Source: Leptospirales bacterium (GTDB lineage Bacteria; Spirochaetota; Leptospiria; Leptospirales; Leptonemataceae). From it: a stretch of 64,000 bases of DNA. The stretch lies in assembly GCA_019694655.1 (NCBI GenBank), contig JAIBBN010000001.1, positions 502,501 to 566,500 of the forward strand, written 5' to 3'. The notes beneath the pieces are model-generated. The model made no database searches and was not told the origin of the DNA. It saw only the letters and a program-made list of their open reading frames with translations. Made by a program: the position numbers and the translations under genes. Below, piece by piece: positions 31,916 to 48,092 of this stretch (positions are counted from its first letter, which is position 1; every line of letters begins with the position of its first letter).

Positions 31916-33496
31916 CTAGACGGCGAAGCGTTGAACCATGGCGCTCAGATTTTGCACCATGCCGTTGAGTTCGCTTACCATCGCCGTAGCCTGCTCGGCG
32001 TTGCTGGAGCTGACCTTCACGCTCTGCGAAACGCCATTGATATTGGCCGCCACGCTGCTGGAGGCCTGGGTCAGCTGACTGATGTTGGAGGCCGATTCAC
32101 GCGCTGTGGTCGATTGCTCTTCGACAGCCGATGCAATGGCCTGGCTGATTTCAGTAACCTGCTGCACATAATCTCGGATCTCATTGATGGCGCGCACGAC
32201 TTCCGCCGAACTCTGCTGGATGCCTGTAATCTCCGTCTTGATTTCCTCGGCAGACTCGAAGGACTGCCGGGCAAGCTCCTTGACCTCCGAGGCCACCACG
32301 GCGAAACCGCGGCCGGCGTCGCCGGCGTTGGCCGCTTCGATGGAAGCGTTCAGCGCCAGCAATTTTGTTTGATCAGCAATGCTGGCGATGGCATCGATCA
32401 CCTTGCCAATGTTCTGCGCTTTCTGGCTGAGCGTGCTGACAATGTCGTCCGAATTCGCGGCGCGGTTGTTGGTTTCCGCCACAAGCTGAGCGGCCTGGGC
32501 CGTCTTGCGTGCAACCTCGCCAATCGTAATCGACATTTCTTCGATGGCGCTGGACATTACCTGCAAATTCTGATTCATCTCTTCGGCGGCGGCGGCAATG
32601 GTTGAAGATTGTTCCGATGCCGCTTCGGCGCTGTTGGACAGTTCGACGCTGGCGCCGTTCAAATGCACCGCCGACTGGTTGAGGCGGAAGGTGTTTTCTT
32701 TGATCTGGCCAATAATGCCGGCGGTGTTGATCAGCATCATCAGCAGCGCGCGCTGCAGATCGCCCACCTCGTCCGGTCGGTCGTGGACGATGCGCGCCGA
32801 AAGGTCGCCCTCAGCAATGGCGCGTGCTACACGAGTTACTTCTTTGACCGGGGCCAGAATCGTACGCTGGACCCAGAGGATGCCGGCAACAGCTACGGCG
32901 CCGGTTAGAAGGCCGCCAATCAATCCCAGGCCGCGAATTCCGGTGAGGAATTCCGCCACGCTGCCGGCCAGCGCAAAAAAGGCGGCGCTCATCAGGCCAA
33001 GGATCAGGCGCAGATTCAGGGACATGCCTGTTCGCTGGCTGGAGCGCAGGCGCGACTTGCCGCGCATCACGCTGTTGTAAAGGCGATCGGCTTCATCCAC
33101 CTGTTGGCGCGTAGGTTTGCGGCGGACTGACATGTAGCCAATCTTTCGACCTTCGCGCATCACCGGCGCGACGTTGGCGTCGACCCAGTAGTAGTTCCCC
33201 GCCTTAGCGCGGTTGCGAACCATTCCATTCCAGGGGCGATCCGCCTGCAGGGTGCTCCACAGATCCTGAAAGGCGCTGCGCGGCATGTCCGGGTGGCGCA
33301 CCACATTGTGCGGCTTGCCGATCAGTTCGTCCTCTTCCAGACCGGCGATCTGCAAAAACTCGCGGTTTGCATAGGTAACGATGCCCTTTAGATCGGTGGT
33401 TGAAATCAGCGTGTCGCCATCGCGCATCACGTCTTCGGCGTCGTTGACGACGACGTTCATCTTTTTGCGTTCTTCAAGTACCTTGTTCTTTGCCAT
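31916..33496 (-). CDS. PAS-domain chemoreceptor (Aer-like MCP)
   Basis: A 526-residue receptor. An N-terminal PAS domain (about 25-120: [44 protein letters not shown]) resembles the FAD-binding PAS of Aer, with the HPDMP and YYWVDAN elements. Two adjoining membrane segments (about 160-208) lead to a HAMP (about 212-265). The MCP signalling domain carries the tip [20 protein letters not shown]. It likely senses redox state or oxygen inside the cell. ATG follows GGAGAAAGG. Own promoter elements may lie in the 112-bp gap upstream. Confidence 0.9.
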
Positions 33497-33533
33497 GGCC
33501 TTTCTCCGTTCCTGCGCGACCAGAATTGAACTC

Positions 33534-33563
33534 AGCTTAGCACACTGGCCAGTTCGTGCGCAA
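33534..33563 (-). promoter_or_regulatory. Weak candidate promoter with palindrome before the PAS chemoreceptor
   Basis: On the minus strand TTGCGC (33563-33558) and TAAGCT (33539-33534) are 18 bp apart, and the spacer holds a perfect palindrome ACTGGCCAGT (33544-33553). The -10 match is poor, so this is only a suggestion. Confidence 0.28.
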
Positions 33564-33608
33564 TGCGTGTCGCCGCCGCATGGCGCCCGCGTCAGTACGG
33601 AGAAGCGA

Positions 33609-34772
33609 TCAGCCAGCCTGGCGGAATAGCGTTACCAGGCCTGCCGGGCTTTCGCTGGCCTGTTTCGGATCTACGGCGTAAATGCGTACCGGCTTTTCCT
33701 TGCCGCGCAGCCTCTGCACCGAAAGGCTCCGGCAGCGAAAGGCTTCGCCGATTTTCTGACGCGTCGCCTCGTCGATCAGTATATCTACGCTGGCCTTCTT
33801 GGTCAGGTTTTGCAGGCGAGCGGCGGTGTTGACCACATCGCCAATCACGGTGTACTCCTTGCGGCGGAAGGAGCCTATATTGCCGGCAAAAACCTCGCCG
33901 CTGGCGATCCCGATGCCGATGCGCAAATCCTCGCGCAGGTAGCGGGGGCGGACGCGGTTGAAATGGCGCAGCGTATCGCGAATTGCCAGCGCGGCGTTCA
34001 CGGCGTTGAGCGCGTCATCCGCGACGGGGTAGGGGCAGCCGAAGGTCGCTAGAATGGCATCGCCCATGAATTTGTTGATCGATCCCTTGCGACTGAGCAT
34101 AAGATCCATCAAATCGTTGAACAGCAGGTTTAGCAATTCCGCCACCTGCGCCGGCGCCAGGCCTTCGCTGATCGTTGTGAAATTGCGAATGTCCATGAAA
34201 ACTATAGTGGCCTCTACGGTTTGGCCGGCCATATGGTCCGCAGTCGGCGCACTGGCAATTTGTCGCAAAATGTCGGGGGAGAAATAGCGCTCCAGCGATT
34301 CCTTCTGCTTTTCCAATTCGAGACGCGCCTCGCGATCATTGACGTTACGAATGACGCCCAGCGTACCGGTGAAACGGCGCTGACCCCCGCGATCTTCCCA
34401 GAGGCCAACGGAGACCGCTTCGCCAAGCATTGCTGTTTCGTGTGCGGCGCTGTTGGGCCGCACAATGCGCACCACCAGGCCGCGCGACATGCGCGTTCCC
34501 GTACGTCGTTCATCAAGAACCGCTGGCGGCGTGGCTGGATGCGGATTGCGTCGCAGCACCTCGGACAGGATCGCTTCGCTGGCATCCTCAGGGTGAATGA
34601 TTTCAGAAATATGCCGTCCGGCGAGGCTCTCCCTGCTGTAGCCCAGCTCTTCAATTACTTGATTTAGATAAACAATATGGCCGCGCGCGTCCAGGCGATA
34701 GACCAGATCGGGCAAGCTCTCAAGCAACGCCTCGGGCGCCTGCGGATTGCAGCCTGCCAGACCCGCATTCAT
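33609..34772 (-). CDS. PAS-domain class III adenylate cyclase
   Basis: A 387-residue soluble enzyme that makes cAMP. A PAS domain (about 12-150) opens with [22 protein letters not shown]. The class III catalytic domain (about 185-365) has both metal-binding Asp residues ([13 protein letters not shown] and [12 protein letters not shown]), the substrate Lys in SINKFMGD, and [13 protein letters not shown], whose Asp marks adenine specificity and whose Asn/Arg stabilise the transition state. All catalytic residues are present. It overlaps the EAL gene upstream by four bases (ATGA). Confidence 0.93.
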
Positions 34773-36439
34773 GGCGCCACCGCCGCGGCCTGTCGTTGGT
34801 TGCGAAAAAACCGCGCAAAGTCGGGGGGCGGAAGCGGCCTCGAAAAATAGAAGCCCTGTACCGAACTCACGCCCAATGCGCGAAGCTCGGACAGCTGCGC
34901 TTCCCGTTCCACTCCTTCTACGGTTACGGGCAGCTTCACGATGCGCGTCAATTCCAGAATCGAGGCCAGGATAGCCGAGGTTTGCGGATTCTGGTCGATG
35001 TCGCTTATGAAGGAGCGGTCGATTTTTACGCGGTCGACGGGCAGGGAACGCAGGGCGCCCAGCGAAGAGAATCCGGTGCCGAAATCATCCATTGCCAGTC
35101 GAAAACCACAGGCGCGCAGCCCGTGCAGGCTCTCCATGGCGGCGCCTGATACGATAGCGCTTTCTGTGACTTCGATTTCCAGGCGCCGTGCATCCACGCC
35201 GGGCAAGCTGAGCGCCTGCATCAATTCCTCAAAGAAAGCGCCCTGCTGTAGCTGCAACGGGGAAAGATTCACCGAGAGGTAGCCCTCGTAGTGCAAAGCG
35301 TCGAGTTCGCGCAGAATCTCGATAGCCGATTGCAATGCCCATCGTCCCAGCGAATGGATAGCGCCGCAGCGCTCGGCAAGGGGGATGAAAATTCCCGGAG
35401 AAATCAGGCCGAGGCGCGGATGGCGCCAGCGCATCAAACACTCAGCGCCCAGGACCTTGCCCTCTGGCGTGCAGATTGGCTGCAGGTGCAGTTCCAGTTC
35501 GTTTCGCGCCGCAGCTTTCTGGATATCGCTTTCCAGCAGACTCAAATCAAAAGGCGGAGCGTCGCTCTCCCGCGTCCACAAGGCGCAGGGTTCATCGCCT
35601 GCCATTGCCGTCTGCAGCGCCTGTTCCAGGCCGCGAACGGCATCGGATACGTCGTCAAATTGTTCCAGGTGTCGCAGCACGGCGCCGCGCACACGGACGC
35701 TCTGGTGTTTGCTACGCGCCGCCAGAAAGCGCCTGGCGTGCAGCACGGTGCGGCTGACCAGACGCAGATCGCTGGCGCTGGCCTCGCGACTGAGCAGGGC
35801 GATTACCACGCCATTGCGAGCGGCCAGCAGTTCGCCGCCGCCGGTGCGGCGCAGCAGACGGCGCAGCCACTCGCCGAGTCGCGCGAAGGTGTGCTGCCGG
35901 TCGGCCTCGTCTTCGCCCAGCGAGAAGGCAATATCGGCGTTGAGCAGCGCCAGACTTCGCCCGCGGTTGTGAGCTCGGCCAATCAGCGCGGCGATGATTT
36001 CGCGAACCGAGCCGGAGGCGTCCTTGCCTTTTGCCGGCCCGGCCAGGATTTCCCTTCGGCGCTGGATGCGCATTTGCACCGAATTCACCAGCGAGCGCGC
36101 GTCAAAGGGCTTGGTAATATAGTCATCGGCGCCCAGTTCCATGCCGCGCCGCAGTTCCGTGGCGTAGGCCGTCAGGTAGATGAATGGTATGTCTGCTGTG
36201 CGGCGGTTGCCGCGAATCGCCGCCAGCACTCGAAAGCCATCCGACTGTTTCAATCCGATATCACAGAGGATTACATCGGGCAGCGATTGCGTGGCAATGG
36301 CCACGCCCTGATCGCCATCGTCGGCCTCCAGCACCGCGAAACCCTCGAACTCCAGAATCTCACGAACCGATTGTCGCATGTCATCATGATCTTCAATGAC
36401 CAGAGCGCATGGCTTATCATTGATGGGACGCTGAGGCAT
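34769..36439 (-). CDS. Response regulator with EAL c-di-GMP phosphodiesterase domain
   Basis: A 556-residue protein. The receiver (about 10-125) has the acidic pair in VIEDHDD, phospho-Asp in VILCDIGL and Lys in DYITKPF. A linker (about 140-290) has lost any GGDEF signature. The EAL domain (about 305-550) reads GAECLMRWRH (ECL for EAL, Glu kept), VNLSP, EVTESAI, AMDDFGTGFSS, DRVKIDRSF, VEGVE and QGFYFSRP, so all metal and catalytic residues look intact. Phosphorylation probably tunes c-di-GMP breakdown. It is coupled to the adenylate cyclase downstream. Confidence 0.92.
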   Translation of the reverse strand: MPQRPINDKPCALVIEDHDDMRQSVREILEFEGFAVLEADDGDQGVAIATQSLPDVILCDIGLKQSDGFRVLAAIRGNRRTADIPFIYLTAYATELRRGMELGADDYITKPFDARSLVNSVQMRIQRRREILAGPAKGKDASGSVREIIAALIGRAHNRGRSLALLNADIAFSLGEDEADRQHTFARLGEWLRRLLRRTGGGELLAARNGVVIALLSREASASDLRLVSRTVLHARRFLAARSKHQSVRVRGAVLRHLEQFDDVSDAVRGLEQALQTAMAGDEPCALWTRESDAPPFDLSLLESDIQKAAARNELELHLQPICTPEGKVLGAECLMRWRHPRLGLISPGIFIPLAERCGAIHSLGRWALQSAIEILRELDALHYEGYLSVNLSPLQLQQGAFFEELMQALSLPGVDARRLEIEVTESAIVSGAAMESLHGLRACGFRLAMDDFGTGFSSLGALRSLPVDRVKIDRSFISDIDQNPQTSAILASILELTRIVKLPVTVEGVEREAQLSELRALGVSSVQGFYFSRPLPPPDFARFFRNQRQAAAVAP

Positions 36440-36504
36440 GGCCAACCATAACGGATCGCCGCGGAAACTGCAATGAGCGCAGCCCGCAGCTTGTCTCCGT
36501 GTCG

Positions 36505-36897
36505 CTACCGAGCTTTGCTGTTGAGCAAACGTCGCACTTCGGCAAGCAATCGTTCCGAAGAGCAAGGTTTGCTCAGGTAAACCGCTACGCCGAGGTCGCG
36601 GGCCTGGCTGCGAATCGTTTCCGAATTCATTGCCGACAAAAATACAAAGGGGATTTCGGCGAGTCGCGGCTCAAGCAGTGCGCGCTGTCGCAGCGAAAAG
36701 CCGTCGAGGTGCGGCATCAGGATGTCACAGATGATCAGGTCCAGTTGCGGTTGCTGCATTTGCTGCCAGGCCTGCGCTCCATCGCTGGCCTGAATCACGA
36801 CATAGCCTTCGAAACTCAAGAGTGCAGCATAATCTTCCAGCAGAGCCGGATTGTCATCCGCCAGCAGAATGGTCGGGTGTGGATCGGTGCGGGTCAT
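36505..36897 (-). CDS. Single-domain response regulator
   Basis: A 130-residue lone receiver. ILLADDNPALL holds the acidic pair, DLIICDILMPHLDG the phospho-Asp, FVFLSA the Ser/Thr, and AVYLSKPCS the Lys. No output domain, so it acts through a partner or as a phosphate shuttle. Its start overlaps the histidine kinase gene by 44 bp, making that kinase the natural donor. The EAL regulator follows 65 bp downstream. Confidence 0.9.
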   Translation of the reverse strand: MTRTDPHPTILLADDNPALLEDYAALLSFEGYVVIQASDGAQAWQQMQQPQLDLIICDILMPHLDGFSLRQRALLEPRLAEIPFVFLSAMNSETIRSQARDLGVAVYLSKPCSSERLLAEVRRLLNSKAR

Positions 36898-39166
36898 TCA
36901 GGCCTGCGGCGACTTTACTTGTTGCATTGCTATCAATCGCAGAACTGATTTCCAGGACAACTCGCGGCGGACCGAATTCCGCCACACGAATGGCGCCGCC
37001 ACACAGTTCCGCCGCTCGGGCAGCAATTGCAAGACCCAGCCCAGTCCCTGGCGGATGGTCGGGGGCTTTGCCGCGAACAAATGGCTCAAACACGTGATCA
37101 CGAATCGCAGGGTCAATTTCCCCATCGTTGGCAACCTGAATGGCGAGCACTCTGCTATCGCCGCCAATGCGTACTTCGATTGCCCCCGGTCCCTGGCTGT
37201 ACTTCAAGGCATTGACGATCAGATTGGCCAGAGCCCGGCGCAGCGCAATATCCAGAACTGCCGCCTCCGCCTGCGGGCGGTCCATCACAATTTTGATTTC
37301 GCGGCTGCTCTCGCTGGCCAGCTGGCAATCGCCGGCAATTTCTGAGAGGTACTCTGGCAGGCTAACGCGAGAGCTTTCCAGACGCAGGCTTTTGGCTGAG
37401 GCGCGCTCGAAGAACATCACGTCTTCCATCAGCGTCGCCATATTGTGCACTTCGCGGCGAATCTTCTCAATGCGCGATTGTCGCTGCTCCGGCGTCATGC
37501 GGTCCAGATACTGGCCCAGCAAGTCCGCAGAGGATTGGATAACGGCCAGCGGCGTGCGGAATTCATGGGATACGACCGATACGAAATTGCGCCGCATAAC
37601 ATTCAGTTCTCGCTCTTTGAGCAGCGCCATTTCCAGACTGGCATAGAGTTCCTTTTCGCGGGCCAGTGCGCTGCTCAATTGATCGGTGCGCTGCGCCACT
37701 TCCTCTTCCAGATACATCCGGTAGCGAGTAAGTTCGGTTACATCCTTCATGACCATGACTGCCGTCGCGCCGCTCCAGTTGCGCGCCCCAACGCGCGCAA
37801 TGGTCGCCTGCAACAGCAGGCTTTCGCCGTCCTTGCGCTTGCCAATCAACTCGTGGCGCTCCGGTTCGCGCCCTTCGCCGACGACGCCGGCTCTTTCGAT
37901 CATTGGCCCTGGATCGACGTTGCCCAGCAAGAGCTGCGCCGGCTGCCCGAGCAATTCATAGAGTTCGAAGCCAAAAAGTCGCTGGCATGCTTCGTTGGCG
38001 TAAACAATCTCTCCCGCTGCCGAAAGTGCAGTGACGGCATCGGTTACCGCGCCCAGGATCGCTCTGGCGCGGGCCTCGCTTTCTACTAAAGCTTCCGATG
38101 CATTGAGCAAATCGCTGATGTCCTGGTAGGTGGTCATGACATCGGACATGCCGCGATGCGGCAGCACTGCGGCGCTCATCAAACCATGAAAGCGTCTGCC
38201 GTTGGGCATTTGCATGCTGAAGCCGGCCTCGCTGCGCAATTCTCCTTCAAACAAATTGAGCAGCGCGCCCAGGCACTTGCGCAGCGTTTCCGAATCGGTT
38301 TGAAATTCGCTGAGGCCCAGCAGCGATGCCGAGGCCGTTCGCGGGCCGAAGGTGCGCTGCATTGCCCTGTTCGACGCGCGTACACGAATGCGACGGGCGA
38401 GGACGCCAATCCGTCGGGGGCGCTGGTAAAAGTAGGAGAGCAGATTTTCGACCCCGCGGCGCAGCAGTCGGAAGAAGTACTCCTCGATCTCGCTGAGATC
38501 CAGTCGTTGCATGGGCAAGGGCGAGGATTCAAACTGCGTCCGAAACTCCTGGGCGCGATCAAGTTCCAGGTTGCGGCGCTGAGAGCGTTCTCGCTGATCA
38601 ATGTAGCAAAGTGCGACGCGCGACCAATCATCTCGCAGCAGACCGGCGCGCACCTCGAAGCGCAGCTCCTGACTGGGCCCGCCGGCAATCGAAGCAAAGT
38701 GGCAAATGGTTTCGCCCTGTAGCAAGGAGAGAACCAGCGCCATCAATTCGGTAGGCGGCAAGGGCGGCGTCTGGCGCAACGGCTGGAGTCCAGACAGGGC
38801 TTTGCCATAAGCGGCATTGCTCTCCAGCTCCACTGCCAGCAACGATAGCTCCTCCAGCTGCTTGTTGTCCGCCGAGCGCAGGCTGCGCAGCGTCAATTGC
38901 CTGGCATCCAGCCGGCGTTTGATGGCCGACAGATCCACAATGCGCAGACCGACAGGAAGGCAGTCGGCAAGCCGACGATACTCAAGAGCGGAATCGTCGG
39001 CAACTGCGGAGACCGCCGCCAGGTTCAAGGGCGCGCGCCCTGCGGCGCCAGAGGCAGCGCGGCCCCGGCGACGTTGCAAGGCGCGGAGCATCGCAGCGCC
39101 GCCAGCGGCGCCCAGCAGAGCGGCCAGCAAAAGCCAGAGCGCCGAGAATGCCGGGAGAGCAGGCAT
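36854..39166 (-). CDS. Large PAS-containing histidine kinase
   Basis: A 770-residue membrane-anchored kinase with one N-terminal hydrophobic segment (about 6-27). Two or three PAS-like domains follow; the clearest is about 375-490 (ILGAVTDAVTALSAAGEIVYANEAC), and a possible one lies near 215-365. A coiled coil leads into the HisKA dimer with FVSVVSHEFRTPLAVI (phospho-His). The ATPase has NLIVNALKYSQGPG (N box) and PPGTGLGLAIAA (G2), but the G1 box is modified (VANDGEIDPAI). Its ATG overlaps the NarL-type regulator stop by one base. Confidence 0.92.
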   Translation of the reverse strand: MPALPAFSALWLLLAALLGAAGGAAMLRALQRRRGRAASGAAGRAPLNLAAVSAVADDSALEYRRLADCLPVGLRIVDLSAIKRRLDARQLTLRSLRSADNKQLEELSLLAVELESNAAYGKALSGLQPLRQTPPLPPTELMALVLSLLQGETICHFASIAGGPSQELRFEVRAGLLRDDWSRVALCYIDQRERSQRRNLELDRAQEFRTQFESSPLPMQRLDLSEIEEYFFRLLRRGVENLLSYFYQRPRRIGVLARRIRVRASNRAMQRTFGPRTASASLLGLSEFQTDSETLRKCLGALLNLFEGELRSEAGFSMQMPNGRRFHGLMSAAVLPHRGMSDVMTTYQDISDLLNASEALVESEARARAILGAVTDAVTALSAAGEIVYANEACQRLFGFELYELLGQPAQLLLGNVDPGPMIERAGVVGEGREPERHELIGKRKDGESLLLQATIARVGARNWSGATAVMVMKDVTELTRYRMYLEEEVAQRTDQLSSALAREKELYASLEMALLKERELNVMRRNFVSVVSHEFRTPLAVIQSSADLLGQYLDRMTPEQRQSRIEKIRREVHNMATLMEDVMFFERASAKSLRLESSRVSLPEYLSEIAGDCQLASESSREIKIVMDRPQAEAAVLDIALRRALANLIVNALKYSQGPGAIEVRIGGDSRVLAIQVANDGEIDPAIRDHVFEPFVRGKAPDHPPGTGLGLAIAARAAELCGGAIRVAEFGPPRVVLEISSAIDSNATSKVAAGLNDPHRSTPDHSAGG

Positions 39167-39849
39167 CAGACCAGACCATGTTCGGCGGCGAAGCGCATCA
39201 GTTCGGCCACGTTGCGAACGCGCAGCTTTTCCATGATTTTTGCGCGGTGGCTTTCTACGGTGCGCACGCTGATAAACAAGTCGTTGGCAATTTCCTTGTT
39301 CATCTTGCCGCGCAGCACCATGTCCAGGATCTCCCGTTCTCGGCGCGTAAGCGTTTCCAGCACCAGTGCGCTTTCCTGCATGCTGCGATAGTCTTCGAAG
39401 ATTAGCTCGTGAACCTGCGACGATATCATGCGATTTCCCGCAGCGACCTTGTGAACGGCGCGTTGCAATTGATCAAAGGCTTCATCTTTGAGTATGTAGC
39501 CGAAGACATTGGCAAATCCCGTAGCCTGGCGAACGTACTTGGCTTCGCGGTGCATGGTCAGTACGACGATGCGCAAGGCCGGCTGCGCCGCCGCCAGTTG
39601 TCGGATCAACTCAAAGCCGTTGATTCCCGGCATCGAAAGATCCAGAATGAGAATATCGCACGGCGACCGCTGCAACTCATTCAAAGTCGAGTCGCCATCG
39701 CTGGCTTCGCCAACAACCTCTACGGATTCGTCGCGGGCCAGCATCTGGCGCAATCCCTGCCGGACTATCTCATGATCGTCGGCCAGCAGGACTCGGATGC
39801 TCTTCCCGCTCTGGGCGAGATCGGATTGTAATTCTGAGCCCTTGGCCAT
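39166..39849 (-). CDS. NarL/FixJ-family response regulator
   Basis: A 227-residue DNA-binding regulator. Receiver residues about 18-135 have the acidic pair in VLLADDHEI, phospho-Asp in ILILDLSMPGING and Lys in GYILKDEA. The LuxR-type HTH at about 160-225 has LTRREREILDMVLRGKMNKEIAND and SVRTVESHRAKIMEKL. ATG at 39849 follows GGTGGAG. The gene begins within the end of the receiver-kinase gene (80-bp overlap), so that kinase is the likely partner. It may activate this whole operon. Confidence 0.93.
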   Translation of the reverse strand: MAKGSELQSDLAQSGKSIRVLLADDHEIVRQGLRQMLARDESVEVVGEASDGDSTLNELQRSPCDILILDLSMPGINGFELIRQLAAAQPALRIVVLTMHREAKYVRQATGFANVFGYILKDEAFDQLQRAVHKVAAGNRMISSQVHELIFEDYRSMQESALVLETLTRREREILDMVLRGKMNKEIANDLFISVRTVESHRAKIMEKLRVRNVAELMRFAAEHGLV

Positions 39850-40945
39850 GATTCTCCACCTCGAGGGCAGCGCCAATCGCCACAGCCCTCTGTTTCATAA
39901 TTCGCAGCCCCAGGCCGCCGCCGCCGTCGCGAAAAACCAGCTCCGGGGCGCCCCCGCCGTCGTCCTCAATGGCAAGCCACAGGGCGCCGTCGGCCAGCCC
40001 CCAGTGCACCTCGGTGCGCCGAGCCTGGGAATGGCGCGCCGTATTGCTCAAGGCCTCTTGTATGATTCTGAAAATATGCACCTGCTGATCTTCAGTCAAG
40101 GAGGCTTCCAGCCCTTCGATTTGCATTTCGACTTCCATTCTTTCCGAAAAGCTGCGCGCCAGATCCAGCAAAGCAGCCTCCAGACCGCGCGGGTGCAGCG
40201 GACTGGCGCCCAGATCATGAGCGAGAGCTCGCGTGCTGCGCGCCAGCGCGTCAAATCGCAACAGCGCTTCGCGCAGTCCTTCGCTGCTGGGCGCAGCCAG
40301 CTGCGCCTGGATCATCCACTTCAGCGAAACGATCTGCTGGCCAATGTTGTCGTGAATCTCTTGAGCCAATCGGCTGCGTTCTTCCTCGCGGACTTCAAGC
40401 AACTGGATGTTCAAATCGAGGATGCGCTTTTCGGAGGCTCGGCGTTTTTCCAGTTCAGCCTCAAGCTGTCGATTGCTACGCAAGATCTCAGCGCTGCGCT
40501 CAATGACGCGCTCTTCGAGGTCCTGGTTGAGCTGGCGCAGCAGGTCCTGTGCCGCGCGCAGGCGCAGCATGCTGCGTACGCGCGCCTTCAGTTCCTGCAC
40601 CTCAAAGGGTTTGCGCACAAAGTCCTCGGCAATTTCGAGGGCCGCCACAATATCCTGCTGACCGCCGCGACCGGAAAGTACGATGATCAACGTATCTCGC
40701 GTCAGCGCCCCGCGCTTCAACTCGCGGGCCACCTCCAGCCCATCGATATCGGGCAGGGTCAAATCAAGCAGCGCCACCGCCGGATGGCGTTCGCGGGCCA
40801 GACGAAGGCCATCCGCTCCCTGTCCGGCGCCAATCGCATGGTAGCCTTCCAGCTCCAGGGCCAGAAGCAAGTTCTCGCGAAGCGCAGCATCGTCTTCGAT
40901 GACCAGCAATTGCGGCGAAGCTGCATCGATCATTGTATTCAGCAT
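39770..40945 (-). CDS. Receiver-linked NarX-type (HisKA_3) sensor kinase
   Basis: A 391-residue cytosolic hybrid. An N-terminal receiver (about 12-130: VIEDDAALREN, ALLDLTLPDIDG, DFVRKPF) connects through a long coiled coil (about 130-195) to a HisKA_3 domain with EEERSRLAQEIHDNIGQQI (phospho-His in EIHD). The ATPase has QEALSNTARHSQA and GGGGLGLRIMKQR. A kinase with its own receiver at the N-terminus suggests that another kinase sets its activity. First gene of the minus-strand signalling series, starting 116 bp from the divergent chemotaxis operon. Confidence 0.92.
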   Translation of the reverse strand: MLNTMIDAASPQLLVIEDDAALRENLLLALELEGYHAIGAGQGADGLRLARERHPAVALLDLTLPDIDGLEVARELKRGALTRDTLIIVLSGRGGQQDIVAALEIAEDFVRKPFEVQELKARVRSMLRLRAAQDLLRQLNQDLEERVIERSAEILRSNRQLEAELEKRRASEKRILDLNIQLLEVREEERSRLAQEIHDNIGQQIVSLKWMIQAQLAAPSSEGLREALLRFDALARSTRALAHDLGASPLHPRGLEAALLDLARSFSERMEVEMQIEGLEASLTEDQQVHIFRIIQEALSNTARHSQARRTEVHWGLADGALWLAIEDDGGGAPELVFRDGGGGLGLRIMKQRAVAIGAALEVENHGQGLRITIRSRPEREEHPSPAGRRS

Positions 40946-41016
40946 TATTCATGCGCCCGCTGACCTTGCAATCCGTATTGCTACCGGGAAGAGATGACGG
41001 CGCCGCCGATTGATTT

Positions 41017-41036
41017 TGGGGCAAAGCTGGGGCAAA
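41017..41036 (+). promoter_or_regulatory. Direct repeat in the divergent signalling/chemotaxis intergenic region
   Basis: TGGGGCAAA occurs twice (41017-41025 and 41028-41036) with an 11-bp period, so both copies face the same side of the helix. It lies 24 bp upstream of the STAS start, between two large divergent operons, and could be an activator or repressor site. No convincing -35/-10 pair was found. Confidence 0.35.
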
Positions 41037-41060
41037 CTTCGCCCATCAGAGGGCAGGCCC

Positions 41061-41357
41061 ATGAATTTTTTTTCAGCAAAGGACCGAGTCGTTATTGCAC
41101 TCGATGAAAACGAACTGGGCGAGTCCGCCCGCTTGCAGCGCGATCTTGCCGCGCTGCCGTTACAGCCCGGCGGCAATCTGGCCATCGACATGCGGCGCGC
41201 TCGCGTACTGCCGCTGCCGGCCGCTGCTACGCTGGCGGCCTTTGCTGCGGCGCGCAGGGCGGAGGGCTCGGCGGTCTCGCTGCAGGTCAGCTCGGACGTG
41301 GCCAGCGCTCTGGAAAGTCTACAGGCCGTGAAGCTCTTCGAGGTGCGCGCCGAATGA
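41061..41357 (+). CDS. STAS-domain protein at the head of the chemotaxis operon
   Basis: A 98-residue protein with a STAS/MlaB-like pattern: VVIALDENELGES, GGNLAIDMRRARVLPLPAAATLAAF, and SLQVSSDVASALESLQAVKLFEV. STAS proteins are often anti-sigma antagonists or partners of switch components. The usual phosphorylatable Ser/Thr after the second strand is not evident here (MRRARVLPL). ATG at 41061 follows AGGGCAGG. It overlaps cheA by four bases (ATGA), implying co-translation. Confidence 0.78.
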   Translation: MNFFSAKDRVVIALDENELGESARLQRDLAALPLQPGGNLAIDMRRARVLPLPAAATLAAFAAARRAEGSAVSLQVSSDVASALESLQAVKLFEVRAE

Positions 41358-43897
41358 AGGCCGCTGTCAACATGGCGGAACTGGCCTCGACCTTCCGCCG
41401 CGAGACGCTGGAGATCCTGCAGCGCGCCGAGGAGGCGATCCTGTCGCTGGAGGGCGGCGAATCGGCGGAAAGCATTCGCGAAATCTTTCGTATTGTACAT
41501 ACGGTCAAGGGTAACGCCGGCCTCTTCGAGCTGCCGGAGCTGGTTTCTGCGGCGCATCACCTGGAAGACGCATTGGCAGCGCTGCGTAAACATCCGCAGA
41601 GTTGCACTCCAGCCTGGATCGATGCGATGCTACAAGGCGTAGATGTGCTGCGAACGCTCTTAACCGAAGCGCCGCCAGATTCAGAGAGCCGGGTTGCGGC
41701 GCTGCGCCAGACGCTACAGCATCTGCTGGCCGACGCCGGGGCTGCCGTCGAAGCCTGCGAGACGGAACCTGAAGAAAAGACTGCATCACATAAGAATCGT
41801 ACGCCTTTGCGCCTCAGCGCGCCTACAGGCGCCATGCTCCGCGCTCGCGAAGAGAACAAGTCTTTGCATCTCTTGCTGTTTGATGCCGTGCAACAACGTC
41901 TGGCCAATCTCTCTGATCTGGCAAAAATGTTTGCCGCACTGCGCGATGAGGGGACCTTGCTGGAGGGCGGCGTGTTGTGGGAGCGCGTGCCGGCGTTGAA
42001 TGGACGCGGCGCCAGCCTGCCCTGTTTCATGTTTCTGCTCAGCGAGGAGGCCCCGGCCTCCATTTGTCGACGCAGCGGCATTCGCGCGGCCCAGCTGAAG
42101 ACGCTCTTTCGCGCGCAATCCATCCTGGATACAAAGCAAGAGACGCCCGCGGCAGAGTCCAGCGCCAGCGCCGCGGTCGCCACTAAGGTCGAATCGCCAG
42201 AAGCAGCGGCTGCAGGTCGCGTTATGCCCGCAACCGAAGCGGAGGGGCAAAAAGCCGACAACCTTCGCGTTTCCCTGGGCCTGATCGATGAGATCATCAA
42301 TCTTACCGGCGAAACAGTCATTGCCCGCAATGACCTGCTGCAGCGTGTAGAAAAGCACGGAAACCAGGATCTGCTCTCAGCGGCGCGCAAAATCAGCCGC
42401 CTGATCACCAGTATGCAAGAGCGCATCATGCGCACGCGCCTGCAGCAGCTGGATCTGGCCTTTCGACGGTTGCCGCGCATTGTTCATGACGCTTGCCGCG
42501 CAACCGCCAAGAAAGCGGAACTGGTGATCGAAGGCGGCGAGACCGAGCTGGATAAGACGCTGATCGACGCTATCCTGGATCCGCTGACCCATTGCGTGCG
42601 CAATTCCGTGGATCACGGCATCGAAAGTCCGGAGGAACGCCGGCGCGCCGGCAAGCCAGAAGCTGGCCTGATTCGCGTCAGCGCCGCCATGAGCGGCGGC
42701 AGCGTGGTCATCACCGTTCGCGACGACGGTCGCGGCCTTGATCTGGAAGCGATTCGCGCTACTGCGGTTCGTCGCGGGGTGATGAGCGACGCCGAAGCCC
42801 GCGCCGCCGATGAGGAGCGCTTGCGCGAATGCCTGTTCATGCCCGGCTTCAGTACGCGCGATTCAGTTTCCGAAACCAGCGGGCGCGGCGTCGGTATGGA
42901 TGTGGTGCGCAGTCGCGTGGAGGCCGCGGGCGGAAGCGTCGAATTGAGCAGCGAGGCCGGACGCGGAATGGAGCTGGCTATCCATCTGCCGCAGACCCTG
43001 GCGATCATTACCTGTTTGCTGGTACGACAGGCTGGAACGCGCTTTGCGATTCCGGAAAAGCATATTGAAGAGATGCTTACCTTTGACGATGCGCAGGCGG
43101 CCATGGTCCGCGATCGCACTGTTTACAATCTGCGTGGTCGCATGCTGCCCTATGTCGACCTTTCTGAAATTCTCAACGGCGAGGCGGGGGCGCACAGCGG
43201 CGGCTACATGGTCGTACTCAAGACCGATCGCGTGCGCTTTGGCTTGCGCGTGGATGAGGTGATCAACCCGGAGGAATTCGTTGTACGCAGATTGTCCGAC
43301 TATTTCCAGAACATTCGGCTTTACTCCGGCGCCGGCGTGATGGGCGACGGCGAGGCGATATTGATTCTGGATACCGCCGGCATCGCCAGATCGGCGCGCC
43401 TGAAATCCAATCTGGCCGAGACCATGGATCGGCGCGAGGATGGAGCAGCAGGCGCCAGCAACCGCAGCTTCCTGCTGTTCCGCGTGGGCGATCAGCGCCT
43501 GGCGCTTGACTTTGCCGATTTCCCGCGGCTGCGTCGCCTCGCGCCAGGCGATCTCAAGGAGTTTCTGGGCCGCGAGTCCGTCCTGCAAGATGAGCGCCTG
43601 GTGCCGGCGCTGCGTCTGGAGCAGATCCGCGAACTGGGCATCCAGCGCAGCGCCGAAGCCGCCGGACGGTATGCAGTATTTCTGGGCCGCGCCGGCGAGG
43701 AGGCCGCGCTCTTGGTCGACGAAGTGATCAATGTGGCGGCGCAGGCAATTGTCTGGGAAGCGGAACGCGCCGGCGCCGGCGTGGTGCGCAATCGCGCCCT
43801 GGTGGACGGATACAGCGTGGGACTGCTGGATGCCGCGGCCTTGCTCAAGGCCAGCGTGCGCGCCGGCAAAGTTGAGCGGCAAGAGGCAATTGCATGA
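41354..43897 (+). CDS. cheA: Chemotaxis histidine kinase CheA with an extra CheW-like domain
   Basis: An 847-residue kinase (E. coli CheA is 654). The Hpt domain has phospho-His49 in IFRIVHTVKGNAGLF. A linker region is followed by P3 dimerisation (LGLIDEIINLTGETVIARND), the P4 ATPase (HCVRNSVDHGIESPEERRRAG, SVVITVRDDGRGLD, MPGFSTRDSVSETSGRGVGMD) and P5 (about 560-690). A further domain (about 700-835: FLLFRVGDQRLALDFADFP, AALLVDEVINV) resembles a second CheW-like module. It receives receptor signals and phosphorylates CheY and CheB. Confidence 0.95.
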   Translation: MKAAVNMAELASTFRRETLEILQRAEEAILSLEGGESAESIREIFRIVHTVKGNAGLFELPELVSAAHHLEDALAALRKHPQSCTPAWIDAMLQGVDVLRTLLTEAPPDSESRVAALRQTLQHLLADAGAAVEACETEPEEKTASHKNRTPLRLSAPTGAMLRAREENKSLHLLLFDAVQQRLANLSDLAKMFAALRDEGTLLEGGVLWERVPALNGRGASLPCFMFLLSEEAPASICRRSGIRAAQLKTLFRAQSILDTKQETPAAESSASAAVATKVESPEAAAAGRVMPATEAEGQKADNLRVSLGLIDEIINLTGETVIARNDLLQRVEKHGNQDLLSAARKISRLITSMQERIMRTRLQQLDLAFRRLPRIVHDACRATAKKAELVIEGGETELDKTLIDAILDPLTHCVRNSVDHGIESPEERRRAGKPEAGLIRVSAAMSGGSVVITVRDDGRGLDLEAIRATAVRRGVMSDAEARAADEERLRECLFMPGFSTRDSVSETSGRGVGMDVVRSRVEAAGGSVELSSEAGRGMELAIHLPQTLAIITCLLVRQAGTRFAIPEKHIEEMLTFDDAQAAMVRDRTVYNLRGRMLPYVDLSEILNGEAGAHSGGYMVVLKTDRVRFGLRVDEVINPEEFVVRRLSDYFQNIRLYSGAGVMGDGEAILILDTAGIARSARLKSNLAETMDRREDGAAGASNRSFLLFRVGDQRLALDFADFPRLRRLAPGDLKEFLGRESVLQDERLVPALRLEQIRELGIQRSAEAAGRYAVFLGRAGEEAALLVDEVINVAAQAIVWEAERAGAGVVRNRALVDGYSVGLLDAAALLKASVRAGKVERQEAIA

Positions 43898-44376
43898 AAC
43901 GATTGGAGGTGCTCAACTTTCGTCATTCGAATCGAATTTACGCCGTCCCGCTGTTGCAGTGTCGCGAAGTCAGCCGCGGTGTGCGCATCAATCAGGTGCC
44001 GCGCGCGCCCGGTTATGTGGCCGGCATCGCCAATATTCGCGGCGACGTGGTGACGGTCATCGATGTGACCGCTTTGCTTACGGGCAATGATGAGCGGCGT
44101 TACGAAAGCGAGGCAGATGGCCTGATCGTTCTTCGCTCCGCGGAGGCTACGGTGGCATTGCTGGCCGACGAAGCGCTGGACGTCATGTCGGTGGATGAAG
44201 CCGAACTGGATACTGCTCCTTCGCAGTTTGAAGAAACCGGCGCCGCCTATCTGGCCGCAGCCTTTCGCTGGAAAGGCGATGTCGCGCTGGTACTGCGGCC
44301 AGAAGCCTTGCTGGATGCGCGCAACGCCGTGAATGAACGGGAATCGAGACGGGCGCTGCAAGGCGGCGTCGCATGA
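43894..44376 (+). CDS. cheW: Chemotaxis coupling protein CheW
   Basis: A 160-residue CheW that couples chemoreceptors to CheA. Seen: FRHSNRIYAVPLLQCREVSRG, the receptor-binding PRAPGYVAGIANIRGDVVTVIDV, and VALLADEALDVMSV. The ATGA overlap joins it to cheA upstream and to cheB downstream. Confidence 0.94.
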   Translation: MKRLEVLNFRHSNRIYAVPLLQCREVSRGVRINQVPRAPGYVAGIANIRGDVVTVIDVTALLTGNDERRYESEADGLIVLRSAEATVALLADEALDVMSVDEAELDTAPSQFEETGAAYLAAAFRWKGDVALVLRPEALLDARNAVNERESRRALQGGVA

Positions 44377-45476
44377 TTGCGCCTACTGCCGTGCATCCGG
44401 TCGGGCAACAGCAGGGCGCCAGAAAGCGCGTGCTGATTGTAGATGATTCGACGCTCTATCGCCAGGCGTTGCGCAGCGTCATCAGCGCCGATCCCGACTA
44501 CGAAGTCGTCTCGACGGCTGGCAATGGCAAACTGGCCTTGCCGCGACTGCGCTACTATAAGCCAGATTTTGTAATACTTGATCAAGAAATGCCGGAGCTG
44601 ACTGGCCTGGAGCTGCTCGATATCATTCGCCGCGACTATCCCTCAACCCGCGTGCTGATGTTCAGCGCCCACACGATCGAGGGATCAAAGACTGCCATTG
44701 AGGCCTTGCACCGCGGCGCGCACGATTTCATTGCCAAGCCGGAGGGGCTGGTGGCCGGCGCGATTCAGGAATTCGTCGATCGAAAGATCCTGCAACGCCT
44801 GCGCGCCCTTTCGCCGACAACGCCCGCTGCTGCCAGCGGCAGGCAGCAGCGCACCTTGCGTCTGGATCACGAGGGCCCTTCGCTTGCAGGCTTTCGGGCT
44901 CGGGCTGTCTGCATCGCTGCCTCCACCGGCGGCCCCATTGCGTTGCGCGCCTTGCTGATGGCACTCGACCGGCGGCTGAACGGTCCGATCTTTCTGGTTC
45001 AGCACATGCCGCCGCTCTTCACTCGCGAACTGGCGCTGAGCCTGGCTCGCTTCAGCGGGCGTGAGATCGTCGAGGCCGAGCACGGCATGGCGGCGCAGGC
45101 GGACGTTTGCTATGTGGCTGCCGGCGGCAAACACATGGTAGTCCGCGACGGCGCCGATGGCCTGACCATAGAACTCAATATGGCGCCGCCGGAACTCAGC
45201 TGCCGTCCCTCCGCCAACATTCTGTTCCGTTCGCTGGCCGCAAGTTCGGTTGCTAAGAGTTGCCTGGCAGTTGTCCTGACCGGCATGGGCGAAGATGGCG
45301 CCGACGGCGTCGGCGCGCTGGTTGAGGTTGGCGGTCGCTGCATCACCCAGAGCGAGGAAAGTTGCACGGTGTATGGCATGCCGCAAGCGGTCGACGCCGC
45401 CGGATGGAGCAGCTTAAGCGCCAGGCCAGAGGATCTGGGAAAGAAGATTGTCGAACTGATGGGCGGCGAGCCATGA
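44373..45476 (+). CDS. cheB: Chemotaxis protein-glutamate methylesterase CheB
   Basis: A 367-residue two-domain enzyme that removes receptor methyl groups and deamidates receptors. The receiver has phospho-Asp70 in FVILDQEMPELTG. The methylesterase domain (about 175-365) has the catalytic triad Ser184 (AASTGGP), His211 (VQHMPP) and Asp308 (LTGMGEDGADG). Length and layout are normal. It starts in the cheW stop (ATGA) and ends in the cheR start (ATGA). Confidence 0.95.
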   Translation: MIAPTAVHPVGQQQGARKRVLIVDDSTLYRQALRSVISADPDYEVVSTAGNGKLALPRLRYYKPDFVILDQEMPELTGLELLDIIRRDYPSTRVLMFSAHTIEGSKTAIEALHRGAHDFIAKPEGLVAGAIQEFVDRKILQRLRALSPTTPAAASGRQQRTLRLDHEGPSLAGFRARAVCIAASTGGPIALRALLMALDRRLNGPIFLVQHMPPLFTRELALSLARFSGREIVEAEHGMAAQADVCYVAAGGKHMVVRDGADGLTIELNMAPPELSCRPSANILFRSLAASSVAKSCLAVVLTGMGEDGADGVGALVEVGGRCITQSEESCTVYGMPQAVDAAGWSSLSARPEDLGKKIVELMGGEP

Positions 45477-46300
45477 ATTCGGCGCAGGAAAAACTGGCGG
45501 CGGCCATTGCTACAGCCAGCGGGCTGCAACTGGGGCCGGACAAGACCTACCTGCTGGATGCGCGACTGGCCTCGGTGATGCGCGAGTTTTCTGTAGCCAG
45601 CTACGACCAGGCCGTGCTGGATTTTGAAGCGCGACCGGAATTTCGCGCGCGCGTCGTTGATGCCATTACCACCCATGAGACCAGTTTTTTTCGCGACGAA
45701 GCAATCTTCCGGGCGCTCCCCGAGCAAATCCTGCCCGAATTGGCCGCGCACCGTCAGACGCCGGAATCGCAGCTGGAACTTTCGATCTGGTCAGCGGCCT
45801 GTGCTACCGGCCAGGAGCCATATTCCATTTTGATGCAGCTGGAAGAGAGCGGCAAATACAACCTCACGGAAATCCAGGTTACCGCCACTGACTGTGCGCA
45901 CGATACTCTGGAGCGCGCTCGCAACGGGCGATTCACAAAGTTCCAGGTCAGTCGCGGTTTGAGCCCCGCCAGACTGGCGCGGCATTTCGATGCTGAGGGC
46001 GACGGCTATCGCATCAAAGCCGGCCTGCGCCAGGGCGTACAATTTCTGGAGCACAATCTGATCAGCGATCCGCCTCCCGGCCGCTTCGATATCGTCTTTT
46101 GCCGAAATGTCGTAATCTATTTCAGCGAGCCTTCGCGGATTCGCGCCCTCGATGCTGTGATTCGCAGCATCAAACCGGACGGCGTACTGATCATTGGCGC
46201 CTCGGAGACTCTGGCAGGCGCCTTCAAGGGCTATGTCATTCGCCATTTTGGGAAGGTATTCTACTACGAAATGAAGAGTTCAAATATAACGCTGTTTTAG
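45473..46300 (+). CDS. cheR: Chemotaxis protein methyltransferase CheR
   Basis: A 275-residue SAM-dependent receptor glutamate methyltransferase. The helical N-terminal part is followed by ITTHETSFFRDEAIF, SIWSAACATGQEPYSI (SAM-binding loop), VTATDCAHDTLERA and FDIVFCRNVVIYFS, all typical. ATG at 45473 overlaps cheB (ATGA). The usual SIG or ATG start of motif I is kept as ACATGQEPY. Confidence 0.95.
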   Translation: MNSAQEKLAAAIATASGLQLGPDKTYLLDARLASVMREFSVASYDQAVLDFEARPEFRARVVDAITTHETSFFRDEAIFRALPEQILPELAAHRQTPESQLELSIWSAACATGQEPYSILMQLEESGKYNLTEIQVTATDCAHDTLERARNGRFTKFQVSRGLSPARLARHFDAEGDGYRIKAGLRQGVQFLEHNLISDPPPGRFDIVFCRNVVIYFSEPSRIRALDAVIRSIKPDGVLIIGASETLAGAFKGYVIRHFGKVFYYEMKSSNITLF

Positions 46301-46336
46301 GTCCGCTTTGGCGCAGCGAACAGCCGGGAGATAGTT

Positions 46337-46744
46337 ATGGAAACGATGAAGCAGAGAACAAGCGTCGGGACGGTCAAAAGCAGGGGCAAAGTGCTGGCCG
46401 TTGACGATTCGGAAACGATGCGCATGATGGTTCGCCAGACTCTGGAGTATGGCGGATATCAGGCGACCGTAGCGCCGGATGGCGCACAGGCGCTGCAGAT
46501 CTTCGATCAAGATAACTTCGATCTGGTAATCACAGATATCAACATGCCCGGCATGGATGGCCTGACCCTGGTGCGCGAGTTGCGAAAGCGAAATCAGGAC
46601 GTCCCGATTCTGACTCTGACCACGGAGTCGGAGGAAGCGCTCAAACGTCAGGGCGCGGAGGCCGGCGCCAACGGCTGGATCGTCAAGCCGCTGATCCCGG
46701 CGCAGTTGCTTGATCTGCTTGGACAGATTCTGGATCGGAACTGA
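46337..46744 (+). CDS. cheY: Chemotaxis response regulator CheY
   Basis: A 135-residue receiver with a short N-terminal extension (about 15 residues). Active-site residues are the acidic pair in AVDDSETM, phospho-Asp67 in LVITDINMPGMDG, Thr in LTLTTES and Lys117 in WIVKPL. The DSETMR helix and MPGMDG loop match CheY partners of CheA in spirochaetes. GGGAGATAG precedes the ATG. It begins 36 bp after cheR and is probably in the same transcript. Confidence 0.93.
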   Translation: METMKQRTSVGTVKSRGKVLAVDDSETMRMMVRQTLEYGGYQATVAPDGAQALQIFDQDNFDLVITDINMPGMDGLTLVRELRKRNQDVPILTLTTESEEALKRQGAEAGANGWIVKPLIPAQLLDLLGQILDRN

Positions 46745-46745
46745 A

Positions 46746-48092
46746 ATGGACGCGGAGCTCCAGCCAACGGCGGTCATCTTTCATCCGGACCCCGAGCGGG
46801 CGGAGCGCTATCGCCTGCTCTTACAGGAGAATGGCTTTGTGGCGATGGCCAGCGCGTCGCGCGGCGCAACCCTCGAACGAATCGCACTTTACTCTCCTTC
46901 CATAGTCATCACGGAGATGGTAACGGAGGACATTCCGCCGCAGGAGTGGTTACGCGCCATCCGTTCGCAAAGCGATGCGGCGGTCATCATTGTGACCCGT
47001 CAGGAGGAGCGGCGCACCGGACTCGATCGACGCCTGGGAGCGATCTTCGAATACCTGGAAGACAATTGCTCAGCGGAGGCCTTGATTGGCGCCGCCAAGC
47101 GCGCGACGGAATTCTACCGCACGATGCGCAAATCCATCAACTATGCCCGCGAGAGTCGTAAGCGCATGCTGGCCCAGCTGGAATGGCTGATCTGGAAACA
47201 AAACCAGCGCGTGGCCGAAAAACGCGAGAACGGACTGCATATCATCCACAGTATCAAGCACTCGCTTACACAGGGTATTGGCCTGGGCTCGATGATTACA
47301 CAGGTGCACTTCCTGCACATGCTTGCTCGCGATAATGCCGTCATCGGCGAACAACTGGCGCCGCTGCTGGAGTCGGCATCCTTTCTTACACGCTGGCTGG
47401 AGAACCTGGATTGCGTACAGTCCTTGCTTGGCGAGCGACACCAGCCTGGCGTCATTGCGCCGGACGACTTCGAAGCATGCGTGCGGCGCAGCGTGCAGGC
47501 GATCAGCGAGTTAGCGCTGATTGGCGGCCACAGCATCGAAATGCAGGGCCTGCGACCGGCCTTTGCAGTACAGGGCGCAGAACGGGCAATCGAGGTGGCC
47601 CTCAGCGAGCTCATGCTCAATGCCATGAAATTCAGTCCGCCTGGTTCAACGATCCACATCGCCGGCCACCGCATGGGCAACTCCTTTGGCCTTCTGGTAT
47701 TGAGCGATGTGATCGACGGAACGAAGAGCGGCATTCCGCCGGATCTCGAGCAGGTAATCTTTGAACCCTTCACCAAACTGAGCAGCGTTTTTGACGAGCG
47801 CTATGCCAATCGACTGCCAGGTTTGGGACTTGGGCTTGGCCTCGGACTCAATCTGGTACAAAATGCTCTGGCCCAGGTGGGCGCGCGCGCTCAGGTCTAC
47901 CAGGTTTCCGATCACTCGCAAAGCTCTGCGCCGGTTCAGCGCGTGGTTGCCGAAATTCTGAGTCCTTTTGTCAGCCAGTCCAGCAACGGACAGCTGAATG
48001 CCGAGTATTCGGGAACATCTGCAGCCCCATCGCCTAAGGCGGCGCCGCAACATGCTCGCCTGGAACGAGCCGCGGCCCTCCGTCAGAGCTGA
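46746..48092 (+). CDS. Pseudo-receiver histidine-kinase-like ATPase ending the chemotaxis operon
   Basis: A 448-residue protein starting one base after the cheY stop. Residues about 7-120 fold like a receiver (TAVIFHPDPERAERYRLLL), but the phospho site reads VITEMV, with Glu in place of Asp. A helical, HisKA-like stretch follows (HIIHSIKHSLTQGIG). The ATPase domain has ALSELMLNAMKFSPPG and a Gly/Leu-rich lid PGLGLGLGLGLNLV. The C-terminal 60 residues are low complexity. Probably a kinase or phosphatase that acts on CheY or the series, with a constitutively on-like receiver. Confidence 0.82.
   Translation: MDAELQPTAVIFHPDPERAERYRLLLQENGFVAMASASRGATLERIALYSPSIVITEMVTEDIPPQEWLRAIRSQSDAAVIIVTRQEERRTGLDRRLGAIFEYLEDNCSAEALIGAAKRATEFYRTMRKSINYARESRKRMLAQLEWLIWKQNQRVAEKRENGLHIIHSIKHSLTQGIGLGSMITQVHFLHMLARDNAVIGEQLAPLLESASFLTRWLENLDCVQSLLGERHQPGVIAPDDFEACVRRSVQAISELALIGGHSIEMQGLRPAFAVQGAERAIEVALSELMLNAMKFSPPGSTIHIAGHRMGNSFGLLVLSDVIDGTKSGIPPDLEQVIFEPFTKLSSVFDERYANRLPGLGLGLGLGLNLVQNALAQVGARAQVYQVSDHSQSSAPVQRVVAEILSPFVSQSSNGQLNAEYSGTSAAPSPKAAPQHARLERAAALRQS

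Follow-up and report, generated by a model that had tools for sequence, protein, structure and literature searches.

In Wsp-type systems, a chemosensory kinase is paired with a receiver-linked enzyme of c-di-GMP metabolism, and the second messenger is made by a receiver-GGDEF protein. A precedent for CheA-dependent control of a c-di-GMP phosphodiesterase comes from Pseudomonas aeruginosa, where Pch (PA5017) acts with the CheA of the chemotaxis machinery at the flagellated pole (PMC3861689). Non-chemotactic output of chemosensory kinases has precedents in Rhodospirillum centenum Che3, a che-like cluster (CheA3-CheS3-CheY3) wired to an extra receiver-kinase (PMC3868531), and in Borrelia burgdorferi CheA1, an accessory spirochaete CheA that is dispensable for chemotaxis in vitro and has a regulatory role (PMC10703414). 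CheAs with two CheW domains fall nearly all into class F5, and the fusion of CheA to CheC/CheX, which marks the F1 system, has been reported from Leptospirae (PMC10782961). Genes for STAS/CheS proteins are known from several alphaproteobacterial che clusters, and the CheS of Sinorhizobium is a STAS protein that binds CheA (described in PMC12654446).

Here we analyzed a 64,000-nucleotide stretch of a Leptospirales bacterium genome (hereafter, the window), in which a che operon lies divergently beside seven genes for two-component, second-messenger and receptor proteins. As in Wsp-type systems, a chemosensory kinase and a receiver-linked c-di-GMP enzyme are encoded in one neighborhood, but the enzymes linked here and in relatives only degrade c-di-GMP (EAL or HD-GYP), no receiver-GGDEF is involved, and the CheA is of a different class. 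The F5-class systems of the alphaproteobacteria Azospirillum, R. centenum and Caulobacter share with the window a dual-CheW CheA along with CheW, CheB, CheR and CheY (PMC10782961), and the small STAS-like gene of the window sits just before cheA, as cheS does in Sinorhizobium and Agrobacterium (PMC12654446). Unlike the F5 class, however, the window CheA has no receiver, its operon lacks CheD and CheT, an Aer-type receptor and NarL and REC-EAL partners are linked to it, the last gene encodes a probable pseudo-kinase, and the spirochaete CheAs form a clade of their own. The locus also resembles CheA-Pch, where the breakdown of c-di-GMP is under the control of a chemosensory CheA (PMC3861689), although the window enzyme is a receiver-EAL protein in an accessory CheA gene cluster. 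Che3, by contrast, relies on two hybrid kinases, CheA3 and CheS3, controls cyst formation and has no EAL/NarL set (PMC3868531), while Borrelia CheA1 works through RpoS stability (PMC10703414). Searches of a literature collection that lacks most subscription journals turned up no account of this set of genes. The reading that we prefer, with a probability of about 0.5, is that of an F5-like accessory chemosensory system served by a separate output branch, in which an Aer-type receptor, a NarL two-component system and REC-EAL would lower c-di-GMP and change transcription.

Organization of the Locus

An earlier note on this DNA described seven minus-strand signaling genes diverging from a che operon on the plus strand, and their coordinates and Pfam domains were confirmed. 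In order of transcription (40945 down to 31916), the minus-strand genes encode a receiver-HisKA_3 histidine kinase (RECHK; 39770-40945), a NarL-type response regulator (39166-39849; Response_reg and GerE domains, assignment also by phylogeny), a PAS histidine kinase with a HisKA domain (36854-39166), a single-domain receiver (36505-36897), a c-di-GMP phosphodiesterase composed of a receiver, a degenerate middle region and an EAL domain (REC-EAL; 34769-36439; Response_reg and EAL), a PAS protein with a class III adenylate cyclase domain (33609-34772; Guanylate_cyc), and an Aer-like chemoreceptor with an N-terminal PAS domain, a hydrophobic hairpin, HAMP and an MCP signaling domain (31916-33496; PAS_3, HAMP, MCPsignal). 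The start codons used are ATG at 39849 for the NarL regulator and at 36439 for REC-EAL, in open frames that reach 39876 and 36565, respectively. Most neighbors overlap or nearly abut, as had been noted. The overlaps as called on this strand are 80 bp (RECHK/NarL), 1 bp (NarL/PAS kinase), 44 bp (PAS kinase/receiver) and 4 bp (REC-EAL/cyclase), and the chemoreceptor gene is the loosest member, set off by a gap of 112 bp. Just 3' of its stop codon, a consensus scan placed an intrinsic-terminator-like hairpin on the minus strand (31889-31868) with a 9-pair stem and a T run, which is likely the end of the minus-strand operon.

The divergent region between the RECHK and STAS-like genes measures 115 bp (40946-41060), not 116 bp as first stated; on its minus strand, one sequence weakly resembles a promoter. 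A 9-bp direct repeat, TGGGGCAAA, with a spacing of 11 occurs within it at 41017-41036 and is possibly a regulator site.

The plus-strand operon (41061-48092) is tightly coupled, in the order stas-cheA-cheW-cheB-cheR-cheY-pseudokinase. Its first gene, small and STAS-like, occupies the place of cheS (41061-41357) and had been left unnamed in the earlier note; it is followed by cheA (41354-43897), cheW (43894-44376), cheB (44373-45476), cheR (45473-46300; ATG at 45473 in a frame open from 45362) and cheY (46337-46744), whose product shares ~60% identity with the CheY proteins encoded at most F5-like loci of relatives. Overlaps of 4 bp each join STAS/CheA, CheA/CheW, CheW/CheB and CheB/CheR; the remaining genes nearly abut except for a 36-bp gap between cheR and cheY. 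The operon had been called complete; it does hold CheA, CheW, CheB, CheR and CheY, but no CheD, CheC/CheX or CheZ. The STAS_2 match of the opening protein is weak (E 0.18); homologs in the same position match at E 0.001-0.01 and share with it an MNF/MNY start and the length.

The conserved last gene (46746-48092) combines a pseudo-receiver with a GHKL ATPase domain (Pfam HATPase_c; alignment). Because eight homologs carry either H or N at the would-be phospho-acceptor position, with no invariant His, its product is more probably a pseudo-kinase or a regulator than a kinase. A single-sequence AlphaFold model of it was poor (pLDDT 46), and no conclusion rests on that model.

By Pfam, the window CheA comprises Hpt, dimerization and HATPase domains and two CheW domains (the pair also occurs in most homologs), with no P2 and no CheC/CheX. 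In the CheA tree, in which basal order is weakly supported and the references carry no class labels, the dual-CheW CheAs of spirochaetes group together (100/100) in a clade that is not nested in the alphaproteobacterial dual-CheW clade. For this reason, "F5-like" is the safe label.

Linkage in Related Genomes

We ran one query set on 14 F5-like loci, 12 F1 loci and 28 arbitrary 20-kb stretches. The latter were taken at round coordinates in seven genomes and were not randomly drawn; the genomes are partly fragmented, and G004 and some loci are contig-limited. NarL-type regulators were found at 5/14 F5-like loci, 0/12 F1 loci and 0/28 arbitrary stretches. The same frequencies were obtained for receiver-linked c-di-GMP phosphodiesterases, which are REC-EAL in the window, G003:C77 and G018, and REC-HD-GYP in G003:C34 and G015:C98. 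Each of the two partners is thus missing from nine of the 14 F5-like loci. One-sided Fisher values (~6e-4 against all 40 controls, 0.03 against the F1 loci alone) overstate the evidence because the loci are phylogenetically related. Counted by clade, two groups show NarL linkage and three show phosphodiesterase linkage, the latter involving two catalytic domains that are unrelated to each other.

Gene order of the che half is conserved across relatives. At four loci (G003:C77, G015:C83, G018:C96, and G001:C8), stas-cheA-W-(mcp)-B-R-Y is preceded by a co-directional gene for a NarL regulator from the subfamily of the window NarL. These four regulators form one clade (100/99), and their branching order is the same as that of their CheAs. 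RECHK is encoded at the linked loci of G003 and G015, REC-EAL at those of G003 and G018, and a lone receiver at that of G015. In G003:C34 (L033:16978-17994) and G015:C98 (L031), the gene next after cheY in an F5-like che operon encodes REC-HD-GYP. An Aer-type MCP with 52% identity to that of the window is encoded within the F5-like che operon of G018. A homolog of the PAS kinase lies beside RECHK/NarL in G004, with a HisKA kinase at the same place in G011. Among the 80 loci listed from phyla outside the order, we found no such linkage. Within the linked che operon of G003:C77, an alpha-type carbonic anhydrase gene (L034:9913-10725) is located between the MCP and STAS genes.

Such an arrangement could also be a loose signaling island, in which the che operon and the two-component/second-messenger operon are functionally separate and have in common only a divergent promoter region. 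The halves are indeed separable: seven genomes carry the che half alone (G006, G002, G017, G020, G026, G027, and G029), and the signaling module occurs on stretches that lack an F5-like CheA in G004:C105 (contig-limited) and G011:C9. The window halves are moreover divergent rather than co-directional, and cyclase linkage is at background. However, NarL and REC-phosphodiesterase linkage at 5/14 F5-like loci each, compared with 0/40 control stretches, the co-directional operons of four relatives, and the congruence of the NarL and CheA trees all speak against independence of the halves, and we regard the loose island as possible but doubtful. The earlier note had proposed a synteny check, with halves that in relatives are unlinked, separately regulated and without a shared phenotype counting against its view; several relatives carry one half alone and others have the two joined. 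Its claim of a single unit is plausible in the functional sense: four other genomes have a NarL of this subfamily next to the corresponding che operon, and none of the control loci does. Because the pairing of chemosensory genes with two-component and phosphodiesterase genes recurs in several related genomes, it is probably a working unit rather than coincidence.

The window CheA is sister to the CheAs of G003:C34 and G015:C98. The window NarL falls in a sister group with those of G004, where RECHK, NarL, REC-EAL, and a PAS kinase occur together before the contig ends, and of G005, where the gene is unlinked. A single ancestral linkage of the whole cluster was considered and appears less likely, given this grouping of the window NarL with contig-limited or unlinked genes and the CheA clade test (p-AU 0.055), under which two separate joinings appear favored over one. 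Since the linkage in the window may be a separate joining event, we do not claim orthology of the whole cluster.

Class of the CheA and the Flagellar Kinase

Four CheA loci are present in the genome from which the window derives. One encodes an F1-type CheA of 1039 residues with P2, CheC, and CheX (G000:C1:567575-570694; L049:5576-8695), just past the end of the window, and its gene begins ~17 kb downstream of the che operon studied here. The C-terminal part of the F1 CheA was recovered in 27/30 genomes of the order. FliM was likewise found in 27/30, including the genome of the window. The dual-CheW CheA clade comprises 14 loci in 12/30 genomes. This near order-wide occurrence of the F1 CheA, compared with 12/30 for the dual-CheW CheA, makes the former more likely to be the flagellar kinase and the latter accessory. 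Thus, the F1 CheA-CheC/CheX is the probable kinase of flagellar chemotaxis, the che operon of the window is probably an accessory, non-flagellar chemosensory system, and the statement in the earlier note that this locus runs the flagellar switch kinase is not supported.

If the locus were instead a second flagellar chemotaxis system, CheY would act on the flagellar switch and REC-EAL would merely adjust motility. Its full CheA/W/B/R/Y set, the presence of FliM in the same genome, and the experimental work on F5 CheAs of Azospirillum, R. centenum, and Caulobacter (PMC10782961) are in keeping with such a role. Yet the order-wide CheA is of the F1 CheA-CheC/CheX type, and over half of the related genomes of the order do without an F5-like CheA, and most of these encode FliM. 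We consider a second flagellar system unlikely and set it aside as the best explanation.

The fourth che locus of this genome (L052:5675-15332; G000:C3) encodes two CheW-like proteins, CheR, an MCP, a CheA-receiver, CheB, and kinases, and resembles the Wsp-type order.

Catalytic Motifs and the Adenylate Cyclase

The EAL motifs E(C/A)L, NLS/NVS, TE, DDFGTG, KID, EGVE, and QGF align with 5m3c and with che-linked homologs. In RECHK, receiver Asp61, His198, and Asn301 are invariant in five homologs. Judged by sequence, the catalytic motifs of both proteins are apparently intact. No protein of the cluster matched the GGDEF family in Pfam.

The best PDB match of the cyclase is 6fht, a bacteriophytochrome-adenylate cyclase fusion, followed by 2w01. 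Its motifs VFMDIRNF (D), INKFMGD, and VVNTAARL (N and R) align with the 6fht cyclase, and both the metal-binding Asp pair and the substrate-specificity residues are present. We take the enzyme to be an adenylate rather than a guanylate cyclase (subclass IIIb). Elsewhere in the same genome, a receiver-adenylate cyclase gene (L050:14153-15349; G000:C13), whose product is 45% identical to the window cyclase, is convergent with the third che operon, which includes CheD.

It is highly improbable that the unit is centered on cAMP, with the PAS cyclase as the main output and cAMP driving the response: the cyclase gene does overlap that of REC-EAL by 4 bp, and a REC-cyclase adjoins another che operon of the genome (L050), but cyclases occur near 2/14 F5-like loci compared with 4/28 arbitrary stretches and 0/12 F1 loci, and none is encoded in the co-directional clusters of relatives. 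Since the adenylate cyclase occurs only at background frequency, the cAMP link drawn by the earlier note is not supported as a conserved trait, and we reject cAMP as a conserved part. The cyclase, like the PAS kinase/receiver pair, was added in the genome of the window or a few relatives and does not belong to the conserved core.

Proposed Mechanism and Implications

In the accessory system with its own output branch that we favor, the Aer-type PAS receptor would feed an array of CheW and dual-CheW CheA, tuned by CheB, CheR, and the CheS-like STAS protein. Phosphorylated CheA would charge CheY and also, either directly or with RECHK and the linked PAS kinase as intermediates, the receiver domains of REC-EAL and NarL. 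The predicted net effect is a lowering of c-di-GMP together with altered transcription, in concert with the F1 flagellar system and not replacing it. We infer co-transcription, all of the phosphotransfer, the ligand, and the direction of the c-di-GMP effect. Linkage suggests the step from CheA to the phosphodiesterase, most strongly at the loci with a REC-HD-GYP gene right behind cheY; for REC-EAL, the only kinases at work may be RECHK or the PAS kinase.

A bolder and more tentative proposal is that of a lineage-specific chemosensory class in which CheA would directly phosphorylate receiver-linked c-di-GMP phosphodiesterases, recruited more than once (EAL and HD-GYP). A redox receptor would then lower c-di-GMP and reset transcription through NarL, leaving the flagellar switch unaddressed.

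Accessory chemosensory systems are common, and their outputs are mostly not known. Here, one CheA type is repeatedly linked to receiver-linked c-di-GMP phosphodiesterases, and these are of two unrelated folds; such a pattern points to a specific output that can be tested for an accessory CheA of spirochaetes, and would be a case of chemosensory control over the breakdown of c-di-GMP instead of its synthesis.
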